Source: Daphnia pulex (lineage: Eukaryota > Arthropoda > Branchiopoda > Diplostraca > Daphniidae). From it: a DNA stretch of 64,000 nt. The DNA is taken from contig NC_060027.1 of assembly GCF_021134715.1 (NCBI RefSeq), positions 3,162,001 through 3,226,000 on the forward strand, given 5' to 3'. The translations under genes and the position numbers were made by a program. The notes below the pieces were generated by a model. That model searched no databases. It saw only the letters and a list, made by a program, of their open reading frames with translations, and was not told where the DNA came from. Below are positions 2,170 to 61,165 of the stretch, piece by piece. Numbering within the stretch: position 1 is the stretch's first letter; each line of letters starts with the position of its first letter.

Positions 2170-2332
2170 CAGGCTTTCGGGATTGCCTCTAGATTCATGG
2201 ACATATGTTAATTTCTATTTTTTACAACAGTTGTATGAATCTATTCCTCAGATAATGAGCTTATTCTATGATCATAATAATCCTAATTGATTGCTTTAAT
2301 ACTTACAGCTGTCGTAAGTTCTTAATTATAAG

Positions 2333-3067
2333 ATGACTGCTGCCCGATCTACAAACCTACAAGTGCTACCCAGTCATGGTGAAAGGCCGGCAACCAATCC
2401 GGAAGACGGCAACAACAAGTCATCATAGAGATCGACTGAAACGAATGCAACAGCGTGTGAAAGAGGAACGGCTAAGATGGAGACCGTGCCGAGCTATATA
2501 TTGCGCACATCTTTCCCCGAAAATTGTTCTAAGATGAGGTATTTAATCGCACAGAAAAGTTTCGTTTTTATATTTGTAACAGTAATTGAATACGATTTGC
2601 TTGTATAGTTGTGCCGACTGCAGTGTCCTGCTCGAGTGACCAGCTATAAATCCTAAGTAGCTGACCAAGCATATTGACTAAAAATCGTTCTGACGGCAAA
2701 GTTCGCCCTGGAAGAGTTACGGAATCATCTCCAACACGTCGGCAGATTAAAGAAAAGGCTCTTCTTATGACCCAACGACACCTTCATCCTTTGCCCTCAC
2801 TGCTCCCACTCTATCTCCTTGAGAGACAAGTCAAGGTAAACTCAAGAAACTTTCAATTAATCCACCGGCAAAATAATATGATGGTGATGTTAATAATTTG
2901 TAATTCAGGAACTTGTTCGCTTAGATTCTCCCCATTAATTGCCCCAACCCTTGTTGATCAAGGAATGGGTTCTGAGTGAAGTTCGTCGTAGGATTGCTTT
3001 CCTCCCATAGAAACTGTTGAGCTCCTGAGAGGATCTCTTGAAGAGAAGCCCCAGCATCAAGACAAAG
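2333..3067 (+). pseudogene. Broken multi-exon gene of unknown function (copy A)
   Basis: An ATG at 2333 opens MTAARSTN, as in copy B (54958), but an indel moves copy A out of frame and it stops at a TAG after about 30 codons where copy B continues to 68. Further on, an exon-like block runs to 2836 (ending LLERQVK before gtaaac), followed by an acceptor near 2908 and a block that stops after DSPH here but reads on in copy B. The region is basic and rich in R, K and Q. No family was recognised. I take it as the relic of a real gene that was already damaged before duplication, because copy B also stops before the next donor near 3067. Confidence 0.45.
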
Positions 3068-3122
3068 TAGGATTAGCGTTTCATATTTGATCATTTTCTA
3101 TTTCTCTAAATGTTGGGATTGT

Positions 3123-3146
3123 AAAAAAAAAAAAAAAAAAAAAAAT
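3123..3146 (+). repeat. Poly-A tract
   Basis: A run of about 24 A. The matching place in copy B (near 55802) has only about 9 A, so the tract has changed length since duplication. No target-site duplication or retroposon body was seen beside it. Confidence 0.7.
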
Positions 3147-3414
3147 AGGGAAGTGAGAGGTGCCGTCACTTTGGTATTCGGTCATTTGGTTTGCGTCAGC
3201 TGCGTGGTAAAATGCGTCCCTGCAAGACTGACACCAACAGTAAGTACACTTGCACATCCTATGAAGTCTTCAAGTGGTTTCTCTAGTGTTTTCACACATT
3301 TAGGTAAATGATTGTTGGGTAAATGGTGATTGACGAATCCAACGAACTTATGGCATTGCTTCTGACCAGTTACATGTCGAACGATTAAGTTACAAGTCGA
3401 GGGTCTTAACTCTC

Positions 3415-3660
3415 GAAGTTCACGGAGATCATTACGTAAAACGTGTGATGCAGTGGTGTAGAGGTTGGGTGAGAACGGGATGTGTTAAATAACCATTTGG
3501 TATTCATTTTGAAATTGGTTTTTGTAGACCCATCCCCAAGAAAGTCTACCTGCAGGAGGAAAGGCCAGTTTGCATTTCCTTCACTATCGAAGGTCACGTA
3601 GATCATTACGAAAAACGTGTCATAAATTGTGTAGAGGTTGGGTGAGAAAGGGACGTGTTT
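3415..3660 (+). repeat. 174-bp tandem repeat, two units (copy A)
   Basis: Units begin gaagttcacggagatcatt (3415) and gaaggtcacgtagatcatt (3589) and share ggttgggtgaga; the first also holds agtctacctgcaggaggaaa. Copy B has three units at 56074, 56248 and 56410. The period of 174 is a multiple of three, which keeps the minus strand open (3406-3777), with WPFLLQVDF in every full unit. The array sits just upstream of the TATA box of the first YTT gene. Confidence 0.75.
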
Positions 3661-3722
3661 CATAATTATCAAGCAGGTACAACAGCCGCAAGGCTTAAGA
3701 GGTGGAGGGAGGAAAAATATTG

Positions 3723-3758
3723 TATAAAAGGAGAGAGAAAAGGCTACAGAAATCAGTC
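3723..3758 (+). promoter_or_regulatory. TATA box and TCAGT initiator of YTT gene 1 (copy A)
   Basis: TATAAAA at 3723-3729 is followed about 30 bp later by the arthropod initiator TCAGTC at 3753. The same pair precedes the matching gene in copy B (56544 and 56574), and the initiator block aatcagtcgagtg recurs before the other YTT genes. The leader then runs about 90 nt to the ATG. Confidence 0.75.
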
Positions 3759-3845
3759 GAGTGTGCATCTCTGACACGTCAACATCTGTTGCAGCGCACT
3801 ACTTGTTACCAATTGCCTTCTTCATCGTGTTACCAGTTCCCAATC

Positions 3846-4074
3846 ATGGGTAAATATTGTGTTTTTTTTTTTACTTAGTGTTGTATTAATGCTACTTTTT
3901 ACTTTTGTAAATGTCATTAATTACAGAATATTTTTGTTTTAATTTATTGATTGTCTATTTAACTAAGGCGTCATGCTGCTGTTGGGTGTTGTACCATTGA
4001 TGGCTGGTTACTGTTCCCCTGGCGAGATATCGGGTCCCTTTTATAAAGCATTAACGAAGAAATCAGTCGAGTGA
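3846..4074 (+). pseudogene. YTT-family secreted protein, gene 1 copy A (truncated)
   Basis: The first coding exon is only ATGG (3846-3849) before gtaaat; the second starts at 3968 after ctaag. Spliced, it reads MGVMLLLGVVPLMAGYC, a clear signal peptide, and then runs straight into the TATA and initiator region of the next gene, stopping at TGA 4072-4074. The YTT-rich mature part found in genes 2 and 3 is missing, so an internal deletion seems to have joined this signal exon to the promoter downstream. A short secreted peptide of about 37 residues could still be made. The same structure is present in copy B. Confidence 0.6.
4042..4068 (+). promoter_or_regulatory. TATA box and initiator of YTT gene 2 (copy A)
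   Basis: TATAAA at 4042-4047 and TCAGTC at 4063-4068, only about 21 bp apart against about 30 in gene 1, suggesting a small deletion between them. The initiator flank matches the other YTT genes. Confidence 0.55.
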
Positions 4075-4126
4075 TCATCACACGGCAACAACTGCTTTTT
4101 TTGTCGTATTTAAACAATTCGCAATC

Positions 4127-4417
4127 ATAGGTAAATATTAATTTATATTTCGAGTCAATTATGTCTCGTTTTTAGTTGTTATTAAATTCTTAGTTAACTA
4201 AGATGTCGTGCTGCTGTTGTGTGTTGTATCTTTCTTGGCTGGGACGACCGCTGGTGTACCGACGTCTCCTGGGTATGACGGATACCAAGCCGCAACGCCG
4301 TTGTCTTACTACAAATCAACATCAACGCACCGACGCCCCAAGTACTACACTGAGATGGCCGAATGTTCACCAACTGCGTTCTTCGTCGTATTACTAGTTT
4401 TCTATCATGGGTAAACA
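4127..4417 (+). pseudogene. YTT-family gene 2 copy A (start codon lost, fused to gene 3 leader)
   Basis: At the place where gene 1 has ATGG before gtaaat, this gene has ATAG (4127-4130), so the split start codon is lost; copy B shows the same change. The second exon starts at 4203 and encodes VVLLLCVVSFLAGTTAGVP, then GYDGYQAATPLSYY. It continues through the 5' leader of gene 3 and stops just past gene 3's own ATG (HG-stop at 4417). Compared with copy B, roughly 190 bp holding the end of gene 2 and the promoter of gene 3 are gone. No in-frame ATG is left before the signal peptide, so it is probably not translated. Confidence 0.6.
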
Positions 4418-5036
4418 AAACATGAAGTTATGGATTAACTCTACTTTTTTCTATTTGTCAACATGCAAGTTATTATTGTATATTATGTTTAAATCGATTA
4501 ATTGTTTAGTAAACTATTCCGTCGTGCTGCTGTTGGCTGTCGTATCGTTGATGGCTGGCGTATCGTTGATGGCTGGGTCGACCACTGGTGTACCGATGTG
4601 TTGTGGGTATGGTGGATACCAAACAGCAACGCCGCTGTCTTACTACACAACAACAACATACAAAACAACCGCATACTACACCACTATTCACCAGAGTATA
4701 ACCCACAACTTATGATGCCTCGAACTACTACACCAAAGCCCCAAAATATAACTCTGCCCAGAGTTACACCACGGAGGCAGCGGAGTACTACACCACGGAG
4801 GCAGCGGAGTACTACACCACGGAGGCAGCGGAGTACTACACCACGGAGGCAGCGGAGTACTACACCACGGAGGCAGCGGAGTACTACACCACGGAGGCAG
4901 CGGAGTACTACACCACGGAGGATGCTGCCCCAGCCTTTTCTACCGAGGCTCCCAAGTACTACACCACCAAGGCACCCGAGTACTACACCATAAACTACGC
5001 TTCCGCAATTTGTTCCTTGGAGGTTTCTAAATGCTA
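4407..5036 (+). pseudogene. YTT-family secreted protein, gene 3 copy A (frameshifted)
   Basis: ATGG (4407-4410) splices to 4510 (gtttag acceptor) to give MVNYSVVLLLAVVSLMAG, with the VSLMAG segment duplicated in tandem (18 bp), then GVPMCCGYGGYQTATPLSYYTT. This frame ends at TGA 4713-4715. The downstream repeat reads as EYYTTEAA units only in another frame, continuing as KYYTTKAPEYYT to a TAG at 5034-5036. Small deletions around 4685-4705, shared with copy B, separate the two frames. The intact ancestor was probably a signal peptide followed by a Tyr/Thr-rich repeat protein; a gut-lining, cuticle or mucus role is conjecture. The current product would be about 69 residues. Confidence 0.6.
4766..4909 (+). 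repeat. 24-bp coding minisatellite, six units (copy A)
   Basis: Six near-perfect units of 24 bp encode EYYTTEAA in the family frame; a partial unit follows at 4910. Copy B has twelve units of a variant encoding EYYTTKGA. A unit of eight codons preserves frame whatever the copy number. Confidence 0.9.
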
Positions 5037-5595
5037 GAGCCGAAATTTCTATTTGATTTTTTTTATATTGGTCGGTCGTCTTCATGGTCATTGGTCACTG
5101 GGAATTAATTGTTGATCTTAGATCAGAAAATAAAAATTCTAATGCTGGTAATTCTTTTGTAAGACTTTTGGTAGTAACATCAAGCCTGTCATAATTTCGA
5201 CAGGTGTCTATTGGTGTTGGACTTCTTCAAGGCCAGTATCCTGCGCTGTAATATGTCTGTTTAATATTTTGGAGGTGACTACTGCCTTAGTCAGTCTGCA
5301 TATGAACGTATTCTTATGTTTAGACGATGTTAGAAGGGTAGGTTACGAAAGAAACTGTTGATTTTGGTTAGTCATATAAGTAAAAGGCAAGTGGATGTAC
5401 TTTGTATTAATGAAAGACTTGAAAGTTGAGAGAAATATATTTTAACAATTCCTAAACAAAACTTGGTATTAATAACTAGGTAAATTAAGAGACAATGAAC
5501 AAAAAACGTATAAAAAGAATTGTGTTATATTGTCCCACCTCCACCCACAATTCCACCACATTTTACAGTCACATACACACAAACATACACTTAAG
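5037..5595. other. Downstream flank of YTT gene 3
   Basis: AT-rich sequence matching copy B (58143-58717). No exon was recognised. An AATAAA at about 5128 could serve as the polyadenylation signal of gene 3. Confidence 0.4.
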
Positions 5596-5865
5596 TTAAC
5601 CCGTTGGCTGCCACGCCATACAACCCGTGGGTTGTACTCTCTACTACTCTACGCGCCACGTCAGAAGGATCCATGACCAAGGTGGGACTTGCCATTGCTG
5701 ACAAGTCCGGGCTGACAAGAGGGGTGCATGGTGCATTGCCTGAAACAGGCGCCTCGCGGCAAGTTTTGGGCTTGGCGACTTTCCGACCCCGCGGCTTGTA
5801 AACCACGAGACCGAACAGCGCGGCCCGTGCAGGGGAGAACAAAGGCGTGGCAGTCAACGGGTTAA
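5596..5865 (+). mobile_element. piggyBac-like MITE (copy A)
   Basis: A TTAA at 5596-5599 is followed by CCCGTTGGCTGCCACGCC; the right end carries the inverted form GGCGTGGCAGTCAACGGG followed by TTAA at 5862-5865. The element is about 262 bp with one mismatch in the inner part of the inverted repeat, and it is more GC-rich than its surroundings. TTAA target sites with ends starting CCC are typical of the piggyBac superfamily. No transposase is encoded, so movement would depend on one supplied in trans. The same element occupies the same place in copy B. Confidence 0.85.
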
Positions 5866-5872
5866 CTAACAC

Positions 5873-6049
5873 TTAACACAAACGACATAATACCAACAAT
5901 ACGATGATCCACGTTGATGACGAGTCTCGGTGTCTGTCGCGATTCGACCGAGTTTCGTTCGCACCAGGAGCAGGGGCAACATCCGACGGAGACCGGTGAC
6001 GACTGTTAAAGATGAGAAATCCATCTTCTCGACGTCTCCTCTGCATTAC
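5873..6049 (-). CDS. Candidate last coding exon, unknown protein (copy A)
   Basis: On the minus strand a good acceptor (tttttattcag) at 6050 opens VMQRRRREDGF, then a Ser/Arg/Asp-rich stretch, and ends in the hydrophobic tail WIIVLLVLCRLC before a stop at 5873. Copy B (58989-59165) keeps the whole frame with a few replacements (V/I, A/E, C/L). Conservation of the frame and acceptor in both copies suggests a real exon; the tail would suit a tail-anchored membrane protein. Upstream exons were not found with confidence, and the stop lies only a few bases from the MITE, which may have supplied or moved the 3' end. Confidence 0.4.
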   Translation of the reverse strand, partial: VMQRRRREDGFLIFNSRHRSPSDVAPAPGANETRSNRDRHRDSSSTWIIVLLVLCRLC

Positions 6050-6214
6050 CTGAATAAAAACAAAACAATTCTTATTAAGTGACATGCCAATAAAAGTTAC
6101 ATAATAGTCACATAATACATATAAGTTCATTGATATGGTTTTTTTGCTCAAAACTTCAAAGGCGCGCTTTAAATTGCTTAAAATCTACCTAACAATGTTG
6201 AGAACTGTACACAT

Positions 6215-6602
6215 AACAAAGCTCACTTGCTAGTCTAAAAAAAAATTCCGGAAGTAGACCGGAAGTAACAACAGCGCCTCAACCATTGAGCTGTCATCAA
6301 ATTAAACCACATTTTCGTGATCCCCATGAAATTTGGGGTCGATTAGATGTGATTTAAACGAAATCCAAAATTTGGCCAAAATCGAGAATTTTCCTGAACT
6401 ATAGTTCAGGAAAATTTTCGAAACCGGAAGTACGAAAACGTAAAAAATATAACATGAACTTTACTACAAATTTTACGAGGATCACGAATATGTGGTTCTT
6501 TTGCTCCTCAAATGAATATTTACTGAACTACAGACTGAAATGAGCAAACCGGAAGTAGAAAAAAAAAGCAAAATATCGAAAATTTAACAAGTGAGCTTTG
6601 TT
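6215..6602. mobile_element. MITE with palindromic core (copy A)
   Basis: Terminal inverted repeats AACAAAGCTCACTTG (6215-6229) and CAAGTGAGCTTTGTT (6588-6602) bound 388 bp of AT-rich sequence. The centre holds a perfect 30-bp palindrome at 6387-6416 whose arms contain TTCCTGAACTA. CCGGAAGT occurs four times inside. There is no coding capacity. Copy B carries the same element at 59331-59717. The superfamily is uncertain because no clear target-site duplication was seen. Confidence 0.75.
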
Positions 6603-9051
6603 GCTGGCATAGTAATCGTCAGTTATCACTAAATATTTCAACAAAATAACTGCCAATAAATATAAAAAGAGATGTTCAAAGTAACTGAAACTGACTGTTT
6701 TGACAGCTGCAAATTATCAAAAAGCCATCTAGCGTTAGAAAAAAGAAACGTCCAAGTAAAACTTCGTTGGCGCCTGATTTTGGAAACTATTACACAGACA
6801 GAGACTAACGCAACTAGACTATTGGTAGATAACCTACGAAAATAAGTCAATTGTTGGGTACCTGGGCATAATCCCGTGGTGAGTGACTGCACAGCGGACG
6901 GAAGCGATCATGAAGTGGTCCAGAAACTCGCCAAGTCGCCAGTGAAGTAAAAAAAATTTGTATTTAGAAGCAGTGAAGCTAGATGATAAGCTAGCTGAGG
7001 ATGCAGGGGGATGTCGCGAAGATAAGGATGGACGTTGGTGGAAGTCCTGCTACGGCAGCGTTCGGTCGTGTGTGTAAACAGCTCCCAAGATCTTGCTTGT
7101 TTTCGTGAGAAATCCTGACTTTTCGTGCCCCAAAGTGCGCCCACTCGTGCCTCTTCCGTCATGGACAAAGATCAGCATTTGCACAAGAATCTTCGTGCCA
7201 GGACAGCACGATTCCATAAAGAAACTGCGTGCTCTGTAAAAACGAATGTTTTACATTAATATTAGAAATAACAATGATAAAGCATATCAATCTTTACCTT
7301 TTCTAAGAAGCACACTGAAATGCTCATGATAAAAAAACCGTAAAAATGGAATCCACAGCAGGTCTCGCATCACACTCTTCATGTCTCTGAAACTCTAAGT
7401 GGAAATGGGACAAGGAAATTCTCTACGTTATTTACAAATTTACACAAATTTACCTTTAAGAAATAAAACTCTACCTATCTCTTAGCTGGGTTGCCTTCTA
7501 AACCGAAGTAAAAACAGCCATAACAAAAAACATGCTGTTGCAGGGTACACCTCCAAAATTGCGAGATTCAGAAAAGATCCTATGGTTCATGAGCAAGAAT
7601 ACCTATGTTTTATGAAAATCAATTGTAATGGTCTGGTAGCAGTAATGGGGAAATACCTTATCTCAATACATTTGTATTCCTCTATGTGTGGGCTTCAAAC
7701 ATGAGTTTTAGGCTTTTGACAGCATGATGATCTAATGGATGAGCGCTAAGTCAACTTGTTGGAATGACTGACAGTATGCATCTAAAATTTGAAGAAATAA
7801 GTTGGTACAGTATAAAAATAAGGAAACTAGGTAAAGATAAACCTACATATGATGTGAAAATCACAGGAATATAAGTATAAATTAGCTACAATTGGTTTCG
7901 CCCATTTCGCCTCGTTTCACGATGAAAGAACAACAAAGGCGACACTGGCGACATCTGGTAATGAGTTTTGAATCCTAATTGTTTGCACAGTCACAGCTCA
8001 AATTATCCATCTTCGGACGACAGCCAAAATAAGGGCCGGCTATTCCCCGGCGTGCAGTGCTCACGCGTGTTTCTTTTCCAGTGACCGAATCGTCTTAGCA
8101 ACGAACAAGATTACGTATATACATAATACATATACTCGTTTCCTACAAAAGAGCCACTAAGATCTTGATTCTTTTATTGCTAGAAAACAAATCAATAAAA
8201 CCGTCTTGAACCACAGTCTACACTTTTATAGAAATAAAGGGTATTTTATTTATTTCTAAAGATTGTTGACATGCAAAAGGGATGAACAGTCCCATCCGAG
8301 TGGTTCATGCATAATGCGAAAACCAATTTGTTCCAAAAAATGATGCGTAGTCAAAATGTTTCTGATATGATACACGTTTATTCTTTATGATGACTATACA
8401 TGATTATATTAACACAGAATCCGACGAACGATTTGAATAAATGATGGCGTATCAACGAACGTGACGTTTGTCGTTCATCCCTTAATCACAGAGAGAAACA
8501 ATCAGGTCACTATCGCGTAGAACACGAAACATTGGTGTCCGCCGTAATGAATATACTGGGATTATATATGTGAATCTACTTTCGTGTGGCTTAAAGTTTG
8601 TCCATCATGAAATATTACTTAAATCTTTTAAAATATGGGATAAATCACAATGGCCTGCAACATGCTCAAACCTTAACTCGTCGAACATTGACGTGTAGAT
8701 ATAATATTTGACACAGCAATAAAATTCTTAAGCAAGTGGAGGGTTTTTCCAAATACTGTTCTACTCTAGATTGAGGTCCGTTACCAACCAAAAAAGAAAA
8801 CTCAAAAATAATAGACTGTTGAAAAATAAAGTGAACCGGTAAAAGTAAAAACTGAAATCAAATCAAATAATGAACTGAGCTGTCATAAAAGTTATCGTTG
8901 AATTGTTCAAAGAACGAAAATAATAAACGGACGTTGAAACGTTGAACTGCAGTTTGATCAAACTTTGTTCGATCAAATAGAATTCAATACCAAAACTTAA
9001 TTGTTTCTAAGGAAAACTGGATAGATGAATGAGGAAAGAAATTTAATTTAA
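6603..9051. other. End of copy A and intergenic region to timeless
   Basis: Up to about 7905 this matches copy B and holds short exon-like fragments on the minus strand (for example GDLASFWTTS near 6910-6940 in both copies) that could not be joined into a gene. From 7906 to 9051 the sequence is single-copy, AT-rich and without recognised genes; it probably includes the 3' UTR of timeless. Confidence 0.4.
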
Positions 9052-12000
9052 TTAAACATCCCGGCCATCACGGGGCAAGGAAATTTCACTTCCAATCGCT
9101 GCCATTTCTTCATTGCTACTAGAGTCTCCACCTCCAACTGTGTTCATTTGCATCGCTGCCCAGTCAGGACGGACTTCTTCCATGGAAACAGATTCGTTTG
9201 ACGAAACTGGTTCACCTTCTGTCATATTGCCCATTCCACTACCGGTACACGCGTTTAACACGGCATCCTCCATTTCTTCGTCATCGCTCGAGTCTGTTTT
9301 GTGAACTTCCAACGAACTAGTCGTGCTGATGCTGTTAAAAAAAAATGAATACGACGACCAATTATGAATAAATCCAGTCTGAAGCAATCAATTATTCTCC
9401 AAAGTACCTATCGAGCGGTCGATGACTGTGATTACTGATGCTGTGGCTACTATTGTGTCCGTGACTGGTGATTTCTGCTGATCGGAACAAAGATCCAGAT
9501 TGTTCAACCCAATGCAGCCAATGATGGGGGACCGCCGACAGCGATGTGGACGGCCCGGGACCCAAATACGGTTGCCAAGTCAGTGGTAGGGATCCTATAA
9601 AACAACGAACAGTTTAGATAAAATAATTGTTGTCTTCAAAGTCATTAAACTGACCATCTACGGGCATCTCTGCGAGCGAGCTGGGAATGGGTAACTCGAC
9701 TTTGCTGACGAGTGACAAATCGAAATCGACTTTCTGCTGATCGATGGGGCCAAAGGAGAGAGCAACGCTGAATATAGTATCAGTCGACCATTCCGGGGGG
9801 ATACGAGGATACAGTCCGGCATGAGGGACGGGCGGAAGAAGGCCCAAGCGATGAAGCAGGAAGAGGAAGAGATCCGAGCGCAGGGCAGATGCTTCGACTT
9901 CCGTCCATGGAATGATCGGACACGACACCTTCATTTTGCGACTGAGACTGGCGATCGGATTACGGAATTCTTGGCCATTGTAGGTGCCCAAACGAGCAGA
10001 GCAGGAAACCAACAAGGAAGACTGAATCCAGTCGAGCTGTTTTTGGAATCCTAAACGTTAGACGAGAGAAACGTAAAAAAGATGGTTTCAGTATTCAAAT
10101 TAATTGGCAAAACAAACCAGAATCCATAAGCTGACCCCTGAGTGATTCAATATCGGTGCGAGGAGTATCGAAAAATGGATCATCGTCTCCTGCTGGTGAT
10201 GCCTGAGCGTCAAACTGTTGTTGGGCTTCAGTATCGGTAGCTGGCGAACCACCCTCTTGATCCGGCGATCCACTCACACTCCTCTGTGGCGACCCAACAT
10301 CGTAACAGCCGCCGGTCTGGAAATTGCGCAAAAATTTCTGCACAACATATTCGATAAGGTCGTCCCAATCGTCACACATCTAAAAGTTAGAAACAAAAAT
10401 GAGGTTAACATCGAACCAAAATAATTGGACAACTGTAAAGGCTTACATTGAATTCTTCCTCCCAGATTTTGCTGAAGGAACGCAAAATAACCGGTTCGCA
10501 CAAGAGATCAGCTCGTCCAAGATCAGCTCCGATATGATGCAATACAGTCAGAATGCAGTCGTTGACAAAAGGGCCGTTGGTTTTGAAATCCTCGAGAGCG
10601 GTTCCGTATCGAGTGAGTATCGTCTTGGAGCAGAATTGATGCAAATGATCCCGCAAATCAAAGCTCGGCCCGTACGTCGACTGCTGGGCGGCTCGCTCGA
10701 GCGTCAGCAAAAGGACGTGATTGGCTGTGATGACGTCACGGAGATAACGACGACTCTGAATAATTGGATTGAAATGACGAAGTTGGAGCAGGAAAAGTTG
10801 ACGGAGATCACGTATCGCCGGCAGGTAACCACGTAGCTGACAAATTCGTTCTTCGTAGCCTTGGGACGATCCATTCCCAGCGGCATTCTGTGAACTGCCA
10901 AGACGCGAATACGTTTCCAACGCTTGAAGATATTCGCGAATAGCGGTGACGCCCAGATGTAGGCGCCTCAGACAAGGTTTCAGGTCGATTGAAGGCCGCA
11001 ATGAGTTCATTTCGAATTCCTCCGTCTCCCGGACAGCCTCCCAAGTCAGGTAGCATAAAAGATCAATAGTGAAGACATCTTTAAAGTGTTCCATATCCAA
11101 CTCCAGCTGGGACGCGAAGCGTAAGAAGTAGGTTATGAGCCAGAGAAAGTGCGATTTGTCCAATGGAAGGTCGTCCTGTTGCAGCAGTTGCTGGTGCAGT
11201 TCGCCCACCAATGCGTTGTAACCTGTCGAAATAATAGCAGACGATGAGGATATTGCTTGACATATAATTAACAAAATGTCTCTCTCACCGTTGAGGAGAA
11301 AGTCGACGGTGAATTCTTTCAAAAGTTGTGAAATGTCTTCCTCGGTCGGAGTGTACTGAACGGCCTTCATCTTGATGTGACCCATCGTTCGACTGCGTTT
11401 ACTCAATTTCTTTCTACGCTGTTCCTTCTCTGGAGGCTGAACTTTTCCCGTTTTGTGAGTAACTTTATTACTTCTAGGAAAAGAAGAAAAATGTTAGATT
11501 CTTCAAATATTTTATCTTCATTTCATGTTTTAACTACCTTTTATTGTTTGTATCCTCCGTTTGTTGGAGAGTTACAGTCGGCGTTCCACTAAAACTAGTT
11601 GAAAGAATTTCTTCCTTAATTATGACGGGAGTTTGAATTGTAGTCGGAATAACGGTTTCATTTCTTCGTTCCGAATTCTGAGAGTTGCCGTGACAACGTC
11701 GCTTGGAAGATTTTTCTTTGTGATCATCAGAATCCTTGGCGTGATGACTGGGATGTTGATTTCCAGAATTCTCCGAGTGGAAGCCACTGGATACGCTGTG
11801 CTGACTGGACCGTCGAGATTTGTCTATAGGTCACCACTCAAGTTAATAATCATCCCAATAAGAATTCAATATCTAGTGATGATCCTTACCCGACTGGCTG
11901 CTGTATTGAGAAGGAGCAGTGCTGGATGTGCTAGCAGTATCTCCTCCAGGTGCTCCAGAAACGGTCGAAAATTTGTGACCTTTACCACGACTTGATTTTC

Positions 12001-18330: not shown

Positions 18331-18331
18331 G

Positions 18332-35802: not shown

Positions 35803-38800
35803 ATGAAGTGGGTTTCCGTGGCCTTTCTTCTGTCCATCGGCACAGTTGTCGCCAGACCGAAATCTAGTAGCACTGAAGGAGGAATAGTTTTAAATGACAT
35901 ACCCACAAGTTCAGGCTCTAGGTCGAGGATTGAGCAGCCTTACCTACGGCACGCCTTAACTAGTGACTTGAGAAGGACTGAAGGACAAGATTTCTGCCGT
36001 AAAACAGCAAAATGTCAGCCAATCAAAAACAACATTTGCTTGACAACGAAATTACCATATTCACAAACATCTTTGGAACTGGTTACCGATTCACACACTC
36101 AGGATGATGTTCAGGTTTGGCAACATGATTTGCATTGTCCTTTTACAGGTTTGGCTAATCCTTTGTTTTTCTTCTAGGATAAGCTCATGTTTTGGCAGAA
36201 CTTGAAAAGTGTTCCCAAATGCTGGGCTGTGATTCAACCCTTTTTGTGTGCTCTCTACATGCCAAGATGTGAAAATGGAACAGTAGAACTTCCTTCTCAG
36301 GTACATACAAAATTAGAATAAGTATGTTCAATCACTCAATGACATTTTACTTACAGGAAATGTGCAAGGTTATTCGTAATCCTTGCAGAATTGTGGAACT
36401 TGAACACAGGAATGGCTGGCCAGATTTTATGAGATGTGAAGACACTGAAAAATTCCCTTCTGGCTGCAAAGTTTGTAATTATTATGTGCATTCATTTGCT
36501 ATTACTAACGAAACTTTTTTCTCTTGCAGAATGAGGTGAGAGAATTGAAATTCAACATCACTCCAAAGTGCCAGTCTCCTCTGGTGGAAACGGACAATAG
36601 TTTGGCTTATGTTGAAGGAGTTGACGGATGCGGACTGCCTTGCACTTCCCCGCTGTTTACAAAGGAGGAACATGAACAAGTCCAACGATTCACACAGACT
36701 CTGGTCGCCATGTGCCTCACCACCAATTTGTTTGCTGTGGTAAGATAATAAACACGTTTAGAATATGGAGATAAATGAATCAATAATCAATCGATTGCTA
36801 TGTGAAGTTTACGTTCATGATTGACTGGCGCTCCGCTTCACGCTACCCGGCCGTTATTATTTTTTACATGAACGTATGCTTCGCTGCCGCTTGTATCGGT
36901 TGGATTGCTCAATATATTCCCAGTGCTAGACAGGATATCATATGCCGGAAAGATGGAACAGCTCGTGTATCAGAACCAAGGTATGATGCCAACTCAGCTT
37001 AAGCCGCATTTCAATGTCTGTAGCAATTTTGGTTTTATGCTTTCACGATTTCGTTTGATTTATTTTTTTATTTTAGTGGCGGAGAAACGCTGTCTTGTGT
37101 TGTTATATTCATCTTAATCTATTATTTTCTCATGGCTGCTTGTGTTTGGTTTGTCATGCTAGCCTATTCGTGGTTCGTCAGCTTCCAAGCCCTGGGTAGA
37201 ATTTTAAATTTTTTTTAACTGCCACCCCAAAAAGAATGAAGACAAAACTGAATGTCATCATTGAAATCTCTCTAGGTAAAATCCGTGAGAAAGTCAGCTC
37301 CAAAGCTGCTTACTTTCACTTGGTCTCCTGGTCAATCCCTCTGGTCCTTACAATTACATGCATGGCGCTAGCACAGGTTGAGTTTTATTTTAAACAAGGA
37401 ATTTATGTGTGAACGTATTTGTTGATTTATATTTATTTATTTCCAACGCAGGTCGAAGCACAAAGTCCTCATGGAATTTGTTTCGTGGCCAACAGCAAAG
37501 TGGTGCGGTCTGGTTTCGTTCTGGCCCCTGTAATGATCTTGCTTTTCATTGGCCATGTGTTTCTCTACCGCGGTTTGCTTATTTTGATTCGTCTCAAACT
37601 GGGCAGCGCTGCCTCAATCTCCGCTTCCGCCAATTCCAAGTTACGCAACACCATCGTTCGACTCGTCTCGTTCTCAGCCTCTATTATCTGTGCTATCGGT
37701 TTGTCCATTTTCTGCCATGTTTACGAATTCGATAGACGAACTCAGTGGAAAACTTCCTTCCGCTCCTACATGGTGTAAGTAATTTTTAAAAAATTGTATC
37801 TAAGGATCTCCGCTTAAATCATAATACTTTTACTTGTAGTTAAATTAGCTAAGCTTTTCACGTTCCTTATCACTCTTATTTTCATGGGGTATTAATACTG
37901 GTTTTTATCATGGCGTCTATATGAGTACGGAATTTAAACTTGCTTTAGGTAGTCCTGGCTATCGCACCCAATTTCAACATGGCCTTGTAGTCTATTTATC
38001 CCCATAAAACTAGTGCGCAGCCGCTTTTCTATCCAATAAATTAATAATTCATTTTCAGATGGCACGTTTCTGTGCCACGTGCAGAAATTCGCCAACAACG
38101 CTAATAAGAGTTTCCTTCTAAATCCAGATCATTAACTGAAATTGAATTTTCTCTGCCAATCTTTCCTTATAAAAATTCAATTAATTATGAAACCAAACTA
38201 TTTTTATCCAGACTTTTTTCAATTTGTACTACTACAAAAAAAATAATTATCTTTTCCTTCCCACGAAACGCTTTCATCCCCCCCCCCCCAAACTAATTAG
38301 TTCCAGCATATAAATGTCGTTTTATGTGTAGGAGGCTTGTTACCTCGAAACGTTTATAAGCCCCATAATTTCAAAATAGGTATTTTACGCCCCCGTTTTG
38401 AAGTAATCAAGTTGAATAATTTACCATTTCCCCTCAAACTTAAAAACAATAATTTTTTAACTAAAAGAAAAATTCATTGTGTTTTTTTCAACGTTCGTAT
38501 TTGACATTGCAGATGCCTGGCCAATCAAAACACCTCTCGCATTCAGAATCAAGGCCTTGCCGATGACTGTGAATTGGAATCTCGACCGAGCATGACCATC
38601 ACCCAAGTTCATTTGATTGCCGTCTTTGGAGCTGGTGTAGCCGTATCTTCGTGGGTCTGGACAAAGGCTTCCGTCCTGGCTTGGCGGAGGTGGTACCGAA
38701 GGTATACACACTTCTTGTTTACTCCCTGTCGGCTTGTTTGCATGTAAACATCGTTTTTATTTCCAGGACCTTCAACAAGAGACCGTTGGATGAACGCGTT

Positions 38801-40444: not shown

Positions 40445-41238
40445 TGATCAAATCTTTTCTTAACTCCCTTTTCGGTCTTGACGATTCAACTTTATTTCCT
40501 TTTTCCTCTCCCGTATTCCGACATTTTATTTTATTCTTTCCCCATATACCTGAACGTGACAATCGTTGTTACCAACGACCTCCGTTTATTTTTAAAAGTT
40601 ATGTGACTCAACTTTCTATGTAACTTTTTTTTATCTAAATCCAACAGAGGACGAATCTCATATGCAGCTAAAAATCAATCAATCAGGTAATGTGAGTCCC
40701 TTTGTTGCCTTTCAAACTCTGACTTTGGAATTCCATGCATTCTTCCACTTATAGATGGTTTTAACTTTATCGAACCGGATCTCTTCTTGGCAAATAGTGT
40801 CAATAAAAAAAAATGTAAGTGCCATTTGAATTGAACTTTGTCGAAACTACTTTTAGAATATCCCAGTGTAACCCAGTAACTTGAAATAGGAACACAATTC
40901 GAGCTGCCGATTTTTTCACGGCATAATCAAATGTGCGCGTTCAGCTGAGCTTTTTTAAATCATTCGATTTATACCACGGCTGAGTTGCTGCTAGCTGGAA
41001 GCGGAAATGGTGCATCCGCTCCTTTTGGCTACGACAATTTCATTTAGGTATATACTTTTTTTTTCCACGTGTCAAGTTAACGTGCTCTACTACAAGTACG
41101 TTGCCTTTGCTTTTGATGAAGTAGCAGCTGCGCACTAGTTTTCTGATGAACATTTTGGACTCATATAAAGGAAGTTTTTTAAATGAGGTGTTTGTCAAGA
41201 AGTTCAGTTGAATGGGGAATGTGAATTGACTTTCTATC
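40445..41238. other. Spacer between smoothened and the GPCR gene
   Basis: About 800 bp holding the smo 3' UTR and the GPCR upstream region. AATAAAAAAA near 40801 is a candidate polyadenylation signal. A CACGTG E-box lies near 41069. Nothing else recognised. Confidence 0.4.
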
Positions 41239-42261: not shown

Positions 42262-42574
42262 AACACCTTCTCGCAAGTCATCACTTGATCAGAGGATGGC
42301 ACTTCATCCATTGATTTTTCTCACGTGCCGTTAACATTATTCGTACCTAGCTAACCTTTTCTTCCTAGTTTTTCCATTCATAATTGCATTTTCTTAACGT
42401 GATGATCTCTAAATGGACTCGAGAACGAGCAAACAATCCAATTAAGTTTTTTTTGGCCTTTAAATGTCGATTAATTTAAATGCAATTTTGTAAATATGCG
42501 TAAAAGAATTATTTGTTTATTCGTCCTCGATCCTTGCCATCGTTTCAACTGAAAAAAATTATAACCTTTCCTAA
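42262..42574. other. Convergent 3' spacer
   Basis: 313 bp between the GPCR stop and the stop of the minus-strand WD40 gene. It contains the two 3' UTRs; no gene seen. A CACGTG lies near 42323. Confidence 0.4.
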
Positions 42575-53472: not shown

Positions 53473-53545
53473 GCCTGGCTAGCTCAGTCGGTAGAGCATG
53501 AGACTCTTAATCTCAGGGTCGTGGGTTCGAGCCCCACGTTGGGCG
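53473..53545 (+). tRNA. tRNA-Lys (anticodon CTT)
   Basis: A 73-nt cloverleaf folds by eye: acceptor GCCTGGC with GTTGGGC (including G-T pairs), D arm GCTC...GAGC, anticodon stem TGAGA/TCTCA with loop CTCTTAA (anticodon CTT), five-base variable loop GGGTC, T arm GTGGG-TTCGAGC-CCCAC, discriminator G. The A box (TAGCTCAGTCGG) and B box (GGTTCGAGCCC) are intact. CCA is not encoded and there is no intron. Confidence 0.96.
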
Positions 53546-53549
53546 ATCC

Positions 53550-53555
53550 TTTTTT
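53550..53555 (+). terminator. RNA polymerase III terminator of tRNA-Lys
   Basis: Six consecutive T residues begin four bases after the tRNA end, the standard Pol III stop signal. Confidence 0.8.
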
Positions 53556-54792: not shown

Positions 54793-54957
54793 AGGCTTTC
54801 GGGTTTCAACTCTTCCAATGCCTCTAGATTCATGGACATTTGTTTATTTCTTTTTTTACAACAGTTGTATGAATGTATTCTTCAGATAATGAGCTTATTC
54901 TATGATCATAATAATCCTAATTGATTACATGCAGCCGTCGTAATTCTTAATTATAAG

Positions 54958-55746
54958 ATGACTGCTGCCCGATCTACCAACAAGTGCAGTACCCAAGTCA
55001 TGGTGAAAGGCCGGCAACCAATCCGGAAGACGCCAACACCAAGTCATCATGGAGATCGACAGAAACGAATGCAACAGTGTGAAAGAGTAAGGGCTAAAAT
55101 GGAGACCGTGCCGAGCTGTTGTACACATTTTTCCCCGAGAATTGTTCTAAGATTAGGTATTTAAATCGCACAGAAAAGTTTCGTTTTTATAGTTGTAACA
55201 GTAATTGAATACGATTTGCTTGTATAGTTGTGTCGACTGCAGTGCCCTGCTCGAGTGGCCAGTTATAAATCCTAGGTAGCAGACCAAGCATATTGACTAA
55301 AAATCAATCAGATCATATAGATGAACTATCATCAGCCCAATAAAAAAAATTCAATGGACGACCGACGGCAAAGTTCGGTTCGCGCTGGATGAATTACGGT
55401 ATCGTCTCCAACTCGTCGACAGATTAAAGAAAAGGCTCTTCTTATGACCCAACGACACCTTCATCCTTTGCCCTCACTGCTCCCACTCTATCTCCTTGAG
55501 AGACAAGTCAAGGTAAACTCAAGAAAGTTCCAATTAATCCACCGGCAAAATAATATGATGATGATGTTAATTAATTTGTAATTCAGGAAATTGTTCACTT
55601 AGATTCTCCCCATTACTTGCCCCAACCCTTGTTGATCAAGGAATGTGTTCTGAGTGAAGTTCGTCGTAGGGTTGCTTTCCTCCCATAGAAACTGTTGAGC
55701 TCCTGAGAGGATCTCTTGAAGGAGAAGCCCCAGCATCAAGACAAAG
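54958..55746 (+). pseudogene. Broken multi-exon gene of unknown function (copy B)
   Basis: The first block reads 68 codons from ATG 54958 (MTAARSTNKC ..., rich in basic residues) to 55164, twice as far as copy A. A later exon-like block ends LLERQVK at about 55510; after an acceptor near 55587 it continues EIVHLDSPHYLPQPLLIK to a TAG at 55686-55688, with frame-disrupted sequence to a donor near 55747. Copy B keeps more of the ancestral frame than copy A but is still interrupted. No family recognised. Confidence 0.45.
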
Positions 55747-56073
55747 TAGGATTAGCGTTTCAAATTTGATCATTTCTATTTCTCTAAATGTTTGGATTGT
55801 AAAAAAAAATAGGGAATTGAGAGGTGCCGTCGCTTTGGTTTGCGTCAGCTGCGTGGTAAAATGCGTCCCTGCAAGACTGACACCAACAGTAAGTACACTT
55901 GCATATCCTATGAAGTCTTCAAGTGGTTTCTCTAGTGTTTTCACACATTTGGGTAAATGATTGTTGGGTAAATGGTGCTTGCCACTGATTGACGAATCCA
56001 ACGAACTTATGGCATTGCTTCTGACCAGTTACATGTCGAACGATTAAGTTACAAGTCGAGGGTCTTCACTCTC

Positions 56074-56480
56074 GAAGTTCACGTAGATCATTACATAAAA
56101 CGTGTGATGCAGTGGTGCAGAGGTTGGGTGAGAACCGGATGTGTTAAATAACCATTTGGTATTCATTTTGATATTGTTTTTTGTAGGCCCATCCCCAGCA
56201 AAGTCTACCTGCAGGAGGAAAGGCCAGTTTGTATGTCCTTCATTTTCGAAGGTCATTACGTAAAACGTGTCATGGAGTGTAAAGGTTGAGTGAGAACGGG
56301 ATTTGTTAAATAACCATTTGGTATTCATTTTGAAATTGGTTTTTGTAGACCCATCCCCAGCAAAGTCTACCTGCAAGAGGAAAGGCCAGTTTGCATTTCC
56401 TTCACTTTCGAAGGTCACGTAGATCATTACGAAAAACGTGTCATAAATTGTCTAGAGGTTGGGTGAGAAAGGGAGTGTTT
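56074..56480 (+). repeat. 174-bp tandem repeat, three units (copy B)
   Basis: Units begin at 56074, 56248 and 56410 (periods 174 and 162, the shorter from a 12-bp deletion). All share ggttgggtgaga or ggttgagtgaga and aggaaaggccagtttg where complete. Both periods are multiples of three, so the minus strand stays open across the array (56044-56427) with WPFLLQVDFAGDG repeated; there is no independent sign that this is translated. Confidence 0.75.
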
Positions 56481-56543
56481 CATAATTATCAAGCAGGTAC
56501 AACAGCCGCAAGGCTTAAGAGGTGGAGAGATGAAACAAAATCG

Positions 56544-56579
56544 TATAAAAGGAGAAAGAAAAGGCTACAGAAATCAGTC
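56544..56579 (+). promoter_or_regulatory. TATA box and initiator of YTT gene 1 (copy B)
   Basis: TATAAAA at 56544-56550 and TCAGTC at 56574, spaced as in copy A. Preservation in both copies supports a working core promoter. Confidence 0.75.
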
Positions 56580-56666
56580 GAGTGTGCATCTCTGACACGT
56601 CAACATCTGTTGCAGCGCACTACTTGTTACCAATTGCCTTCTTCATCGTGTTACCAGTTCCCAATC

Positions 56667-56968
56667 ATGGGTAAATATTTTTTTTTTTTTTTTACTTAGT
56701 GTTGTATTAATGCTACTTTTGATTTTTTGTTAATGTCATTAATTACTGATTAGTTTTGTTTAAATTCATTGATTGTCTATTTAACTAAGGCGTCATGCTG
56801 CTGTTGGGTGTTGTACCATTGATGGCTGGTTACTGTGCCCCTTGCGAGATATCGGCTCCCTTCATAAAGCATAAGCAACAACGAAGAAATCAGTCGAGTG
56901 ATCATCACACGGCAACAACTGCTTTCTTCGTCGTGTTAAAACAATTCGCAATCATAGGTAAATATTAA
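56667..56968 (+). pseudogene. YTT-family gene 1 copy B (truncated)
   Basis: ATGG (56667-56670) splices to 56790 to give MGVMLLLGVVPLMAGYC, then reads through the degraded promoter and leader of gene 2 to a TAA at 56966-56968. As in copy A, the Tyr/Thr-rich mature part is missing and the tail is former non-coding DNA; here a small indel puts it in a different frame. It could give a secreted peptide of about 61 residues. Confidence 0.55.
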
Positions 56969-57295
56969 TATTTATTTCGAGTCAATTCTTTCTCGTTTTT
57001 AGTTGCTGATATGAGCAGATATAACTGATAATTTATTTTCAAATTGATTAAATTCCTAGTTAACTAAGATATCGTGCTGCTGTTGTGTGTTATATCTATG
57101 TTGGATGGGACGGCCACTGGTGTACCGATGTTTCCTGGGTATGGCGAATACCAAACCGCAACGCTGCCGCCTTACTATACAACACATACAACACGACCAA
57201 TTTCTACACCAAGGCTCCAAAGTACTACACCACCACGGCACCGGAGTACTGCACAACTACATTTCATGGGTAAATATTCGGTTACATGTTTTTAA
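56954..57295 (+). pseudogene. YTT-family gene 2 copy B (start lost, frameshifted)
   Basis: ATAG replaces the split ATGG (56954-56957), as in copy A. The second exon (57069 onward) encodes IVLLLCVISMLDGTATGVP and GYGEYQTATLPPYYTT; a frameshift near 57200 then separates this from NFYTKAPKYYTTTAPEYCTT in the family frame. The signal frame stops at 57295. Sequence beyond TTAPEYC, missing in copy A, is kept here. Confidence 0.55.
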
Positions 57296-57341
57296 GTATG
57301 CTAATTATTAAATATCCAATTTTATTTATTTATTCTTGTCG

Positions 57342-57374
57342 TATAATAGGAGAGCAAAGGCGAAAGAAATCAGT
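57342..57374 (+). promoter_or_regulatory. TATA-like box and initiator of YTT gene 3 (copy B)
   Basis: TATAATA at 57342-57348 and TCAGT at 57370-57374, about 28 bp apart, with the family flank gaaatcagtcgagtg. The whole element is deleted in copy A. Confidence 0.65.
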
Positions 57375-57462
57375 CGAGTGATCATCTCCGACACGACAAC
57401 AGCAACTGCAGTGCAGTATTATTCACCAACTGCGTTCTTCGAAGCATTACTAGTTTTCAATC

Positions 57463-58142
57463 ATGGGTAAACATTTTTACATGAAGTTGTGAATTAACTC
57501 ACTTTTTTCTATTTGTCAACATGCAAGTTATTATTGTATATTATGAGGTTTAAATCGATTAATTGTTTAGTAAACTATTTCGTCGTGCTGCTGTTGGCTG
57601 TCGTATCGTTGATGGCTGGGTCGACCACTGGTGTACCGATGTCTCGTAGGTATGGTGGATACCAAACCGCAACGCCGCTGTCTTACTACTCAACAACAAC
57701 ATACGCACAACCACTATTCACCAGAGTATAACCCACAACTTGTGATGCCCCGAACTACTACACCGAAGCCCCAAAATATAACTCTGCCCAGAGTTACACC
57801 ACGAAGGGAGCGGAATACTACACCACGAAGGGAGCGGAGTACTACACCACGAAGGGAGCGGAGTACTACACCACGAAGGGAGCGGAGTACTACACCACGA
57901 AGGGAGCGGAGTACTACACCACGAAGGGAGCGGAGTACTACACCACGAAGGGAGCGGAGTACTACACCACGAAGGGAGCGGAGTACTACACCACGAAGGG
58001 AGCGGAGTACTACACCACGAAGGGAGCGGAGTACTACACCACGAAGGGAGCGGAGTACTACACCACGAAGGGAGCGGAGTACTACACCATCACGTATGCT
58101 GCCCCAGCCTTTTACACCGTGGTCTTTAGTACTACACCATAA
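57463..58142 (+). pseudogene. YTT-family secreted protein, gene 3 copy B (frameshifted)
   Basis: ATGG (57463-57466) joins 57571 to give MVNYFVVLLLAVVSLMAG, then GVPMSRRYGGYQTATPLSYYSTT; this frame stops at TAA 57729-57731, giving 54 residues. The downstream repeat is read as EYYTTKGA in the family frame, which continues TITYAAPAFYT and stops at 58140-58142 after a further shift. The disabling deletions near the 5' edge of the repeat are shared with copy A and therefore older than the duplication. Promoter, split start codon and signal peptide all remain intact. Confidence 0.6.
57796..58083 (+). repeat. 24-bp coding minisatellite, twelve units (copy B)
   Basis: Twelve units of 24 bp encode EYYTTKGA in the family frame; only the first unit differs visibly (gaatac for gagtac). 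Such uniformity points to recent expansion or homogenisation. Copy A has six units of the EYYTTEAA variant, so each array has homogenised separately. Confidence 0.9.
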
Positions 58143-58717
58143 ACTACGCTTCCGCAATTTGTTCCTTGGAGGTTCCTAAATGCTAGAGCCGAAATTTCCA
58201 TTTTATTTGATTTCGATTGTCTTCATGGTCATTGGTCACTGGGAATTAATTGTTGATCTTAAATGGGAAAATAAAAATTCTAATGCTGGTAATTCTTTTG
58301 TAAGACTTTTGGTAGTAACATCAAGCCTGTCATCATTTCGACAGGTGTGTATTGGTGATGGACTTCTTTGGGGCCAGTATCCTGCGCTGTAATGTATTTT
58401 TCATATTTTAGAGGTGACTACTGCCTTAGTCGGTCTGCATATGGACGTATTCTTATGTTTAGACGATGTTAGAAGGGTAGGTTACGAAAGAAACTATTGA
58501 TTTTGGTTAGTCATATAAGTAAAGGCAAGTGGATGTACTTTGTATAAATGAAAGACTTGGAAGTTGAGAAAAATATATTTTAACAATTCCTAAACAAAAC
58601 TTGGTATAAATTAAGAAACAATGAACAAAAAACTTATAAAAAGAATTGTGTTATATTGTCCCACCTCCACCCACAATTCCACCACATTTTACAGTCACAT
58701 ACATACATACACTTAAG
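58143..58717. other. Downstream flank of YTT gene 3 (copy B)
   Basis: AT-rich sequence matching 5037-5595; no exon recognised. AATAAA near 58270 could end the gene 3 transcript. Confidence 0.4.
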
Positions 58718-58988
58718 TTAACCCGTTGGCTGCCACGCCATACAACCCGTAGGTTATACTCTACTTCTCTACGTGCCATGTCTGAAGGATCCATGACCAA
58801 GTGGGACTTGCCATTGCTGACAAGTCCGTGCTGACAAGGGGGGGACTAAGGTGCATTGCCTTATAACAGGCTTGCCTTGCGGCAAATTTTGGGCTTGGCG
58901 ACTCTCCGACCCCGCGGCTTGTAAACCACGAGACCGAACAGCGCGGCCCGTGCAGGGGAGAACAAAGGCGTGGCAGACAACGGGTTAA
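58718..58988 (+). mobile_element. piggyBac-like MITE (copy B)
   Basis: TTAA (58718-58721), the same CCCGTTGGCTGCCACGCC left end, about 263 bp of interior, the inverted right end and TTAA (58985-58988). It sits at exactly the same place as the copy A element, so insertion preceded the segmental duplication. It differs internally by substitutions and small indels. Confidence 0.85.
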
Positions 58989-59165
58989 CTAACACAAACG
59001 CAATAATACCAACAATACGATGATCCACGTTGATGACGAGTCTCGGTGTCGGTCGCGATTCGACCGAGTTTCGTTCTCACCAGGAGCAGGAGCAACATCC
59101 GACGGAGATCGGTGACGACTGTTAAAGATGAGAAATCCATCTTCTCGACGTCTCCTCTGCATTAT
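58989..59165 (-). CDS. Candidate last coding exon, unknown protein (copy B)
   Basis: Counterpart of 5873-6049: acceptor ttattcag, IMQRRRREDGF, Ser/Arg-rich middle and hydrophobic end WIIVLLVLLRLC. No stop or frameshift separates the copies. Function unknown; a tail anchor is possible. Confidence 0.4.
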   Translation of the reverse strand: MMQRRRREDGFLIFNSRHRSPSDVAPAPGENETRSNRDRHRDSSSTWIIVLLVLLRLC

Positions 59166-59330
59166 CTGAATAAAAACAAAACAATTCTTATTAAGTGAAA
59201 TGTCAATACAAGTTACATAATAGTCACATAATAAATATAAGTTCATTGATATGGTTTTTTTGCTCAAAACTTCAAAGGCGCACTTTAAATTGCTTAAAAT
59301 CTACCTAACAATGTTGAGAACTGTACACAT

Positions 59331-59717
59331 AACAAAGCTCACTTGCTAGTCTAAAAAAAAATTCCGGAAGTAGACCGGAAGTAACAACAGCGCCTCAACC
59401 ATTGAGCTGTCATCAAATTAAACCACATATTCGTGATCTCCATGAAATTTGGGGTCGATTAGATGTGATTTAAACGAAATCCAAAATTTGGCCAAAATCG
59501 AGAATTTTCCTGAACTATAGTTCAGGAAAATTCTTAAAACCGGAAGTACGAAAACGTAAAAAAGATTACATGAACTTTACCACAAATTTGACGAGGATTA
59601 CGAATATGTGGTTCTTTTGTACGTCAAATGAATATTTACTGAACTACTGACAAAAATGTGAAAACCGGAAGTAGAAAAAAAAAGCAATTATCGAAAATTT
59701 AACAAGTGAGCTTTGTT
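59331..59717. mobile_element. MITE with palindromic core (copy B)
   Basis: Inverted ends AACAAAGCTCACTTG (59331-59345) and CAAGTGAGCTTTGTT (59703-59717). The central perfect palindrome is 34 bp here (59501-59534) against 30 in copy A. CCGGAAGT is again present four times. Same insertion point as copy A. Confidence 0.75.
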
Positions 59718-61165
59718 GCTGGAATAGTAATCGTCAGTTTTCACTAAATATTTCAACAAAATAACTGCCAATAAATATAAAAAGAGATGTTCAAAGTAAC
59801 TGAAACTGACTGTTTTGACAGCTGCAAATTATCAAAAAGCCATCTAGCGTTAGAAAAAAGAAACGTCCAAGTAAAACTTCGTTGGCGCGTAAAAGGGCCT
59901 GATTTTGGAAACTATTACACAGACAGAGACTAACGCAACTAGACTATTGGTAGATAACCTACGAAAATAAGCCAATTGTTGGGTACCTGGGCATAATCCC
60001 GTGGTGAGTGACTGCAGGTGTGTAACAGCGGACGGAAGCGATCACTGAAGTGGTCCAGAAACTCGCCAAGTCGCCAGTGAAGTAAAACAAATAGTGTTTA
60101 GAAGCAGTGAATCTAGATGAGCGTGCGTCGTGAAGATAGTGACGGAGAAGAACGTTGGTGGAAGTCCCTCTTCCGTCATGGACAATAGTCAGCATTGGCA
60201 CAAGAATCTCCGTGCCAAGACCATACGATTCCATAACAGAAACTGCGTGATCTGTAAAAAAAAAAAAAAAAGTTTTACATTAATGAAAATTTAACAATGA
60301 ATAAAGCATATAAATCTTTACCATTTCTTAGAAGCACACTGAATGTTCATGATGAAAAAACCGTAAAAATGGAATTCACAGCAACCAACAGCAGTACTCC
60401 ATGTTGAGATAAATTTCCTGATGCTAAAGAAAGTGTCATGAAGTATTGCATTAGCGTGGTGATGGGTGATATTGATGTTTACCTTTATCATACGGGTGAT
60501 GAATTTAGTAAAGCATTTGACTTTCATCAAGCAGATCTGGTACATGAACATACACATGGCAGGTTTCACTTCACACTCTTCATGTTTCTGAAACTCTAAG
60601 TGGAAATGGGACAAGGAAATTCTCTACATGATTTACAAATTTACACAAATTTACCTATGGGAAATTAAACTCTACCTATCTCTTTTAGCTGGGTTGCCTT
60701 CTAAACCGAAGTAAAAACAGCCATAACAACAAACATGCTGTTGCAGGGTACGCCACCAAAAATGTGAGATTCAGAAAAGATCCTATGGTTCATGAGCAAG
60801 AATACCTATGTTTTATGAAAATCTAAATTGTGATGGTCTGGTAGCAGTAATGGGGAAATACCTTATCTCGATACATTTGTATTCCTCTATGTGTGGGCTT
60901 CAAACATGAGTTTTAGGCTTTTGAAAGCATGAGGATCTATTGGATGGAAATAATTGACTGAGCGGTAAGTCAACTTGATGCCTTGATGGAATGACCGAAT
61001 GACTGACAGTCAGCTGACAGTATAGAATTTGAAGAAAAAAGTTGGTACAGTATAAAAATAAGGAAACTAGGTAAAAATAAACCTACGTAAGATACGAAGT
61101 TCAATTTGGTATTTCAAATCACAGGAATCTAAGCATAAATTAGCTACAATTTGTTTCGCCCTTTT
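59718..61165. other. Right part of copy B
   Basis: Matches 6603-7905 with indels on both sides, including a run of about 16 A near 60259. Minus-strand fragments such as GDLASFWTTS recur but do not assemble into a gene. Confidence 0.4.

Follow-up and report, generated by a model that had tools for sequence, protein, structure and literature searches.

Palindromic gene pairs with arm-to-arm conversion have been described on the human Y chromosome and in Adineta vaga and Folsomia candida. Low-copy repeats (segmental duplications), multigene families in concerted evolution through interlocus gene conversion, and foldback or long-terminal-inverted-repeat (long-TIR) DNA transposons are the other known systems that come closest to the sequences considered here. 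These sequences lie in a window of 64,000 nucleotides (G000:C11:3162001-3226000) of Daphnia pulex, whose genus alternates clonal and sexual reproduction, within a 133.2-Mb assembly of 13 contigs from which all family copies were taken. An earlier note on this stretch of DNA had singled out two direct repeats of about 6 kb, here copies A and B, which bracket 46.9 kb of genes including timeless (tim) and smoothened (smo). Seen through a single window, the two repeats resemble a special cassette, while the whole-genome view shows two beads in a series, and this genome-wide recurrence of the A/B unit is new beyond the earlier note. The neighbouring copies A and B are solitary members of a large family of units dispersed through the genome. 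In 5′ to 3′ order, the unit holds a region with 88-bp repeats, at least one short gene for a putative Tyr/Thr-rich protein, a noncoding core of 1.5 kb that includes a predicted hairpin, and a 3′ module.

As in the palindromic gene pairs, the arms of the palindromic loci of this family are nearly identical (95.9-100%, against a median pair difference of about 8.5%); unlike in those systems, a single gene family accounts for 35 tail-to-tail loci, counted in what was scored of one search, and neither A nor B has a partner arm. A palindrome survey based on a different method gives at most 19 palindromes per genome, with D. pulex outside the palindrome count (PMC7953838). Like low-copy repeats, A and B are direct repeats of more than 5 kb that are over 90% identical in aligned columns and stand 47 kb apart. 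Unlike them, they are not private to the interval, as seen in the copy A, core, 3′ module, signal exon and hairpin searches, privacy being limited to a 1.2-kb 5′ part; no rearrangement is seen in the one assembly, and exchange is patchwise and involves many loci. The family shares with concerted-evolution families its numerous dispersed homologous copies (copy A, signal exon and hairpin searches), mosaic copies, chromosome-biased variants and homogenised stretches, but it is most homogeneous in the noncoding DNA that surrounds the hairpin rather than on the gene side, and its loci are over-dispersed. Two inverted arms, a short centre and dispersed copies recall foldback or long-TIR transposons, from which the family differs in having no outer end common to the five palindromes compared, no target-site duplication seen, and no transposase in the four open reading frames (ORFs) scanned. 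No published description of the unit family, its palindromes or its spacing was found in the open literature as judged from titles and abstract openings.

Searches of the assembly with copy A returned at least 244 matches (21 of 1068 candidates scored), those with the core at least 97 matches on nine contigs (40 of 729 scored), and those with the 3′ module at least 58 matches (40 of 297 scored). A signal-peptide-like exon gave 722 first-look candidates, and all 150 that were scored were significant. A 44-base hairpin motif matched the genome 386 times at up to three mismatches, about 100 of these matches being listed, and the reversed pattern used as a control gave 0. The match lists are partial (40 of 598 candidates were scored in one further search), and their union amounts to 230 loci, two of which are A and B.

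The claim that A and B are direct repeats sharing orientation and feature order is borne out by self-comparison of the window, in which six colinear blocks of constant order and orientation run from 2184/54819 to 7908/61166 with 84-91% blastn identity. In a global alignment over A 2184-7908, the copies are 93.4% identical over 5482 aligned columns (Kimura two-parameter distance 0.070), with 1109 gap columns, no perfect run longer than 146 bp, and an identity per 200 bp that ranges from 82% to 99.5%. Because the copies have diverged by both substitutions and indels, they are not a simple assembly duplicate, and the earlier note was right on this point. No second, inverted arm was found for A or B in the window, nor in the flanking 9 kb on the left and 9.9 kb on the right.

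The 5′ part of the two copies points to a local origin. A query covering 2170-3400 gave 16 matches, of which only A and B are full length (15 of 15 candidates scored); the best other match reaches 71% over about 400 bp, while A and B are 93-98% identical per 200 bp. Because this 1.2-kb flank is present at full length only in A and B, one of them was probably copied from the other locally. Weak relatives of the segment (70-71%) are found at G000:C11:2480481-2480921 and 2496620-2497061, in opposite orientations and 16 kb apart. When 200-bp windows were compared by alignment score with 21 other loci, 19 of the 29 windows of A had B as their closest relative, and 15 of the 32 windows of B had A. 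The first 13 windows of A are all closest to B, one of them tied with locus L012, which supports the shared local origin.

Beyond these 13 windows, the closest relative of A changes between loci. At 5580-5980, A is 100% identical to L010, a palindrome at 3.298 Mb on C11, and 98-99.5% identical to L012, against 92-96% for B; at 6380-6580, it is 100% identical to L013, a copy on C7, against 91.5% for B. The cores of 22 copies, with 370 polymorphic columns between them, were put to a Sawyer-type run test, from which L029 was left out for its indels (it was retained in the hairpin divergence comparison). Runs of identity beyond chance were found in 22 of 231 pairs (global P<0.05). The strongest of these is A with L013, and A with L010 is also significant. 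Both A and B are mosaics, and their patches look like the result of interlocus gene conversion from the same and other chromosomes, a mechanism suggested by the pattern of the sequences. The earlier note had envisaged exchange between A and B themselves; family copies do seem to exchange sequence, but the traces at A and B lead to other loci, some of them on other chromosomes.

Many family members are not solitary. Inverted pairs of units were present at 8 of the 19 loci from the first search with A (17 fetched loci plus A and B), and in all 11 loci in which the core could be read in both arms, the core arms are 95.9-100% identical, compared with a median of 91.5% over all pairs among 34 copies. 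Three of these 11 arm pairs (L037-L039) were selected as pairs already seen, as was L040, whose core was readable in a single arm. When the 150 exons scored are grouped, they make up 98 loci, of which 36 are two-stranded, and 35 of these 36 are tail-to-tail; the count takes in scored exons only, so that unscored partners do not contribute.

The gene of the unit has an exon that encodes a signal-like, hydrophobic peptide and, after it, Tyr/Thr-rich repeats, such as YTTEAAEY on a 24-bp tandem unit, and its predicted product is a short secreted-type Tyr/Thr-rich repeat protein. In both A and B this gene looks broken, unless an intron intervenes, because the signal frame and the array frame of A differ and the frame of B is interrupted by a stop codon. 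An open frame of 333 aa spanning signal and repeats is present in L016 on C7. Outside the 24-bp array, the gene-side blocks of A are mostly 65-86% identical to other loci, whereas full-length cores reach 88-94%, which makes the noncoding core the better kept part. No conserved reading frame was recognised in the core of A. Three side observations concern the gene side. A subfamily with an identical 99-aa open frame and near-equal scores (52.3-52.6 bits) occurs on C1, C7, C9 and C11, as if recently spread. L012:4595-6411, in a unit at 3.45 Mb on C11, consists of tandem gene subunits of about 550 bp and is the closest relative of much of the gene side of B. L014:7935-9500 on C7 holds, beside a family unit, a 522-aa open frame that by eye resembles a non-LTR retrotransposon protein.

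Within the core, a 206-bp stretch is predicted to fold as a long hairpin (z -6.25 relative to 200 shuffled sequences), of which 25 distinct forms occur among 34 copies. One variant base of this hairpin differs between chromosomes: among 100 listed of 147 matches, C7 has A in 37 of 40, while C is the base in 23 of 24 matches on C5 and in 15 of 15 on C9 (chi2 P 7e-14, the two-arm rows of one locus being non-independent). Another hairpin variant is found in 30 copies, 17 of them on C10 and 5 on C12.

Altogether, A and B are likely to be solitary members of a dispersed, partly palindromic unit family that underwent a local duplication and then patchy gene conversion. Many loci of the family contain paired units that form a tail-to-tail palindrome. 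In such a model, a local duplication would have given the second of A and B, as the common 5′ flank suggests, and short tracts would later have been overwritten by conversion from copies on the same and other chromosomes. The bracketing of tim, smo and the other genes would then be a by-product of family density rather than the mark of a recombination cassette. Where the family is present it is dense (152 of 218 neighbour gaps in the union list measure 45-200 kb), so genes bracketed by consecutive members are ordinary there. Some long stretches, one example being C7 between 2.4 and 8.9 Mb, are without any locus among the matches listed. Several points weigh against this model. The A-B pair is absent from the 22 significant pairs of the run test. 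This test permutes polymorphic columns and takes no account of shared ancestry or rate variation, so that its P values are indicative. The strongest patch, that between A and L013, overlaps the slow-evolving hairpin, whereas the A/L010 patch does not. The mosaics could also stem from the mode of new-copy formation, with donors that are not unique, and the copies come from a single assembly of one clone of one species. The earlier note had instead proposed that A and B are low-copy direct repeats between which recurrent unequal crossing-over deletes or duplicates the 47-kb block, shifting the dosage of tim and smo jointly. Their common orientation, their distance of 53 kb, and core windows of up to 99.5% identity with perfect runs of up to 146 bp would suit such exchange. 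However, a 6.1-kb piece of the interval carrying smo and a G-protein-coupled receptor (GPCR) gene (36200-42300) has no second full copy in the assembly: smo has a match of about 0.6 kb at 90% on C7, and the GPCR is touched by weak C10 matches of 73-75%. Evidence of unequal crossing-over was not found in this one assembly, with the 6.1 kb tested, and nothing was seen in support of recurrent loss or gain of the block. Moreover, the significant exchange traces link A and B to other loci and not to each other. Neighbour gaps of 20-45 kb are scarce as well, numbering 4 of 218 in the union list of 230 loci where about 20 are expected after local jitter (three runs with 2000 trials each, whose null means range from 19.5 to 21.7 and whose P(null<=obs) is 0.0000 every time); close pairs may thus be removed rather than kept, for example through ectopic recombination, in line with the logic of the earlier note, or may never have arisen. 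The idea that A and B form a pair apart which drives the loss or gain of the block finds no support, as they are two of 230 loci, and recurrent unequal crossing-over is a very unlikely account of them.

The spacing of the loci and the shape of the unit also bear on two other explanations. Signal-exon loci alone show 0 of 87 gaps of 20-45 kb (null 4.3, P 0.011), and on C7 the coefficient of variation of the gaps is not significant on the left arm (P 0.33) but is on the right arm (P 0.015). The 20-45 kb statistic was chosen after a first look at the gap list of C7; thinning of incomplete lists should blur regularity and not generate it, and a detection bias may play a part. Of the 218 gaps, eight are smaller than the one between A and B (53 kb). 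Overall, the loci are over-dispersed, with few close neighbours. This avoidance of close neighbours argues against the unit being a mobile element, that is, a foldback or long-terminal-inverted-repeat transposon carrying genes, with A and B as degenerate insertions. Hundreds of dispersed candidate copies, the palindromic shape with a central 3′ module, and the near-identical arms would fit an element of this kind, as would the outer ends of three of five palindromes (L010, L019 and L021), which lie near one family repeat. Yet there is no single base at which these ends coincide, L017 and L023 end in other places, and a comparison by eye of the outer ends of the five palindromes, whose blastn ends are approximate, showed no target-site duplication. 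The four unit ORFs gave no Pfam match at or above the curated cut-off; autonomous relatives were not sought. A mobile origin of the unit is considered improbable. A further explanation takes the hairpin core to be an active element at the level of the chromosome that selection maintains, such as a boundary, pairing or replication site, with the gene being secondary. In favour of this explanation, similarity to other loci is higher for the core than for the gene side, and the core is kept in A and B even though their gene looks broken. Mean pairwise divergence (253 pairs) is 4.0% in the hairpin against 7.3-12.1% in the other core stretches, and differences per column amount to 0.8% in the apical stem and to 5.4% where columns are unpaired; over-dispersed loci and chromosome-biased variants point the same way. 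On the other hand, no compensatory change was found in 65 predicted pairs over 25 distinct rows, 34 of 1622 pair cells are broken, and palindrome-centred conversion could yield an equally low divergence. A selected chromosomal role of the core is likewise considered improbable. An extended form of it, in which the near-invariant hairpin, in hundreds of over-dispersed copies with chromosome-biased variants, would serve as a chromosome-arm bead that marks or organises the arms through pairing, loop boundaries or replication, palindromes and conversion keeping the hairpin uniform, is improbable too. If the pattern holds in other clones, the number of palindromic gene pairs in this genome would be unusually large for an animal, with sequences homogenised from one chromosome to another and loci spread out at intervals along the chromosomes. 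It would then offer a natural test of palindromes and ectopic gene conversion, and of whether a noncoding hairpin rather than a gene is what is kept.

Table 1. Features of copies A and B and of the bracketed interval (window positions).
Feature	Position	Strand	Evidence or remark
Copy A, solitary non-palindromic unit	2180..7993	+	Self-comparison, global alignment; other loci align to A up to 7972-8006
5′ segment of A, full length common to B only	2180..3400	+	Genome search; partial weak relatives elsewhere
Signal-peptide-like exon frame in A, VVLLLAVVSLMAG	4398..4715	+	Stops before repeat array
Tandem array in A, 6.5 units of 24 bp that encode YTTEAAEY	4765..4921	+	Frame 4702-5037 differs from signal exon frame
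Core of A, about 1.5 kb	5480..6986	+	Core search; 88-94% identity to full-length cores scored elsewhere
Conversion-like patch in A vs L010	5523..6056	+	0 differences, 102 successive polymorphic sites, global P 0.013
Near-invariant long hairpin in core of A, 206 bp	6300..6505	+	Fold, divergence, motif search; 40-bp apical palindrome 6382-6421
Conversion-like patch in A vs L013 (C7)	6328..6655	+	0 differences, 85 successive polymorphic sites, global P 0.001
3′ module of A	7360..7993	+	At or near centre in palindromes
timeless C-terminal exon	9614..10054	-	PF05029 (TIMELESS_C)
smoothened membrane-region exons	37024..38744	+	PF01534 (Frizzled/Smoothened) on three ORFs
Copy B, solitary unit, direct orientation relative to A	54800..61166	+	Self-comparison, global alignment
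5′ segment of B, matching that of A	54800..56000	+	Genome search
Signal-peptide-like exon frame in B	57498..57731	+	Closes with stop codon; array frame 57732-58142 next, in-frame
24-bp tandem array in B, 12.3 units	57795..58089	+	Tandem-repeat and reading-frame analysis
Core of B	58607..60120	+	Core search
Hairpin in B	59416..59621	+	Self-comparison, alignment; apical palindrome 59501-59534
3′ module of B	60559..61166	+	Self-comparison

The gene content given earlier for the interval is supported by Pfam for tim, the scramblases, a PDCD2-like gene, smo, a rhodopsin-type GPCR and a WD40 gene. In a first set of interval ORFs, 5 of 10 scanned had a match (TIMELESS_C, Scramblase on two ORFs, PDCD2_C and 7tm_1), and in a second set 6 of 8 did (three ORFs each for Frizzled/Smoothened and WD40). 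The assignment of leucine-rich repeat (LRR) and Sdc-like genes found no such backing, as the ORFs tried for them had no Pfam match at 0.001. At Rfam gathering thresholds, the whole window gave one match only, a tRNA gene at 53473-53545 that lies about 1.3 kb upstream of copy B, the repeats being without a match. The smo-related piece on C7 pairs window positions 36200-36848 with G000:C7:6141917-6142502 and lacks 58 query bases between two abutting matches; it looks as if an intron had been removed and may be a fragment of a processed retrocopy. Just past copy B, a tandem repeat of about 138 bp in 5.6 copies (62116-62891) lies within a coiled-coil-like reading frame.

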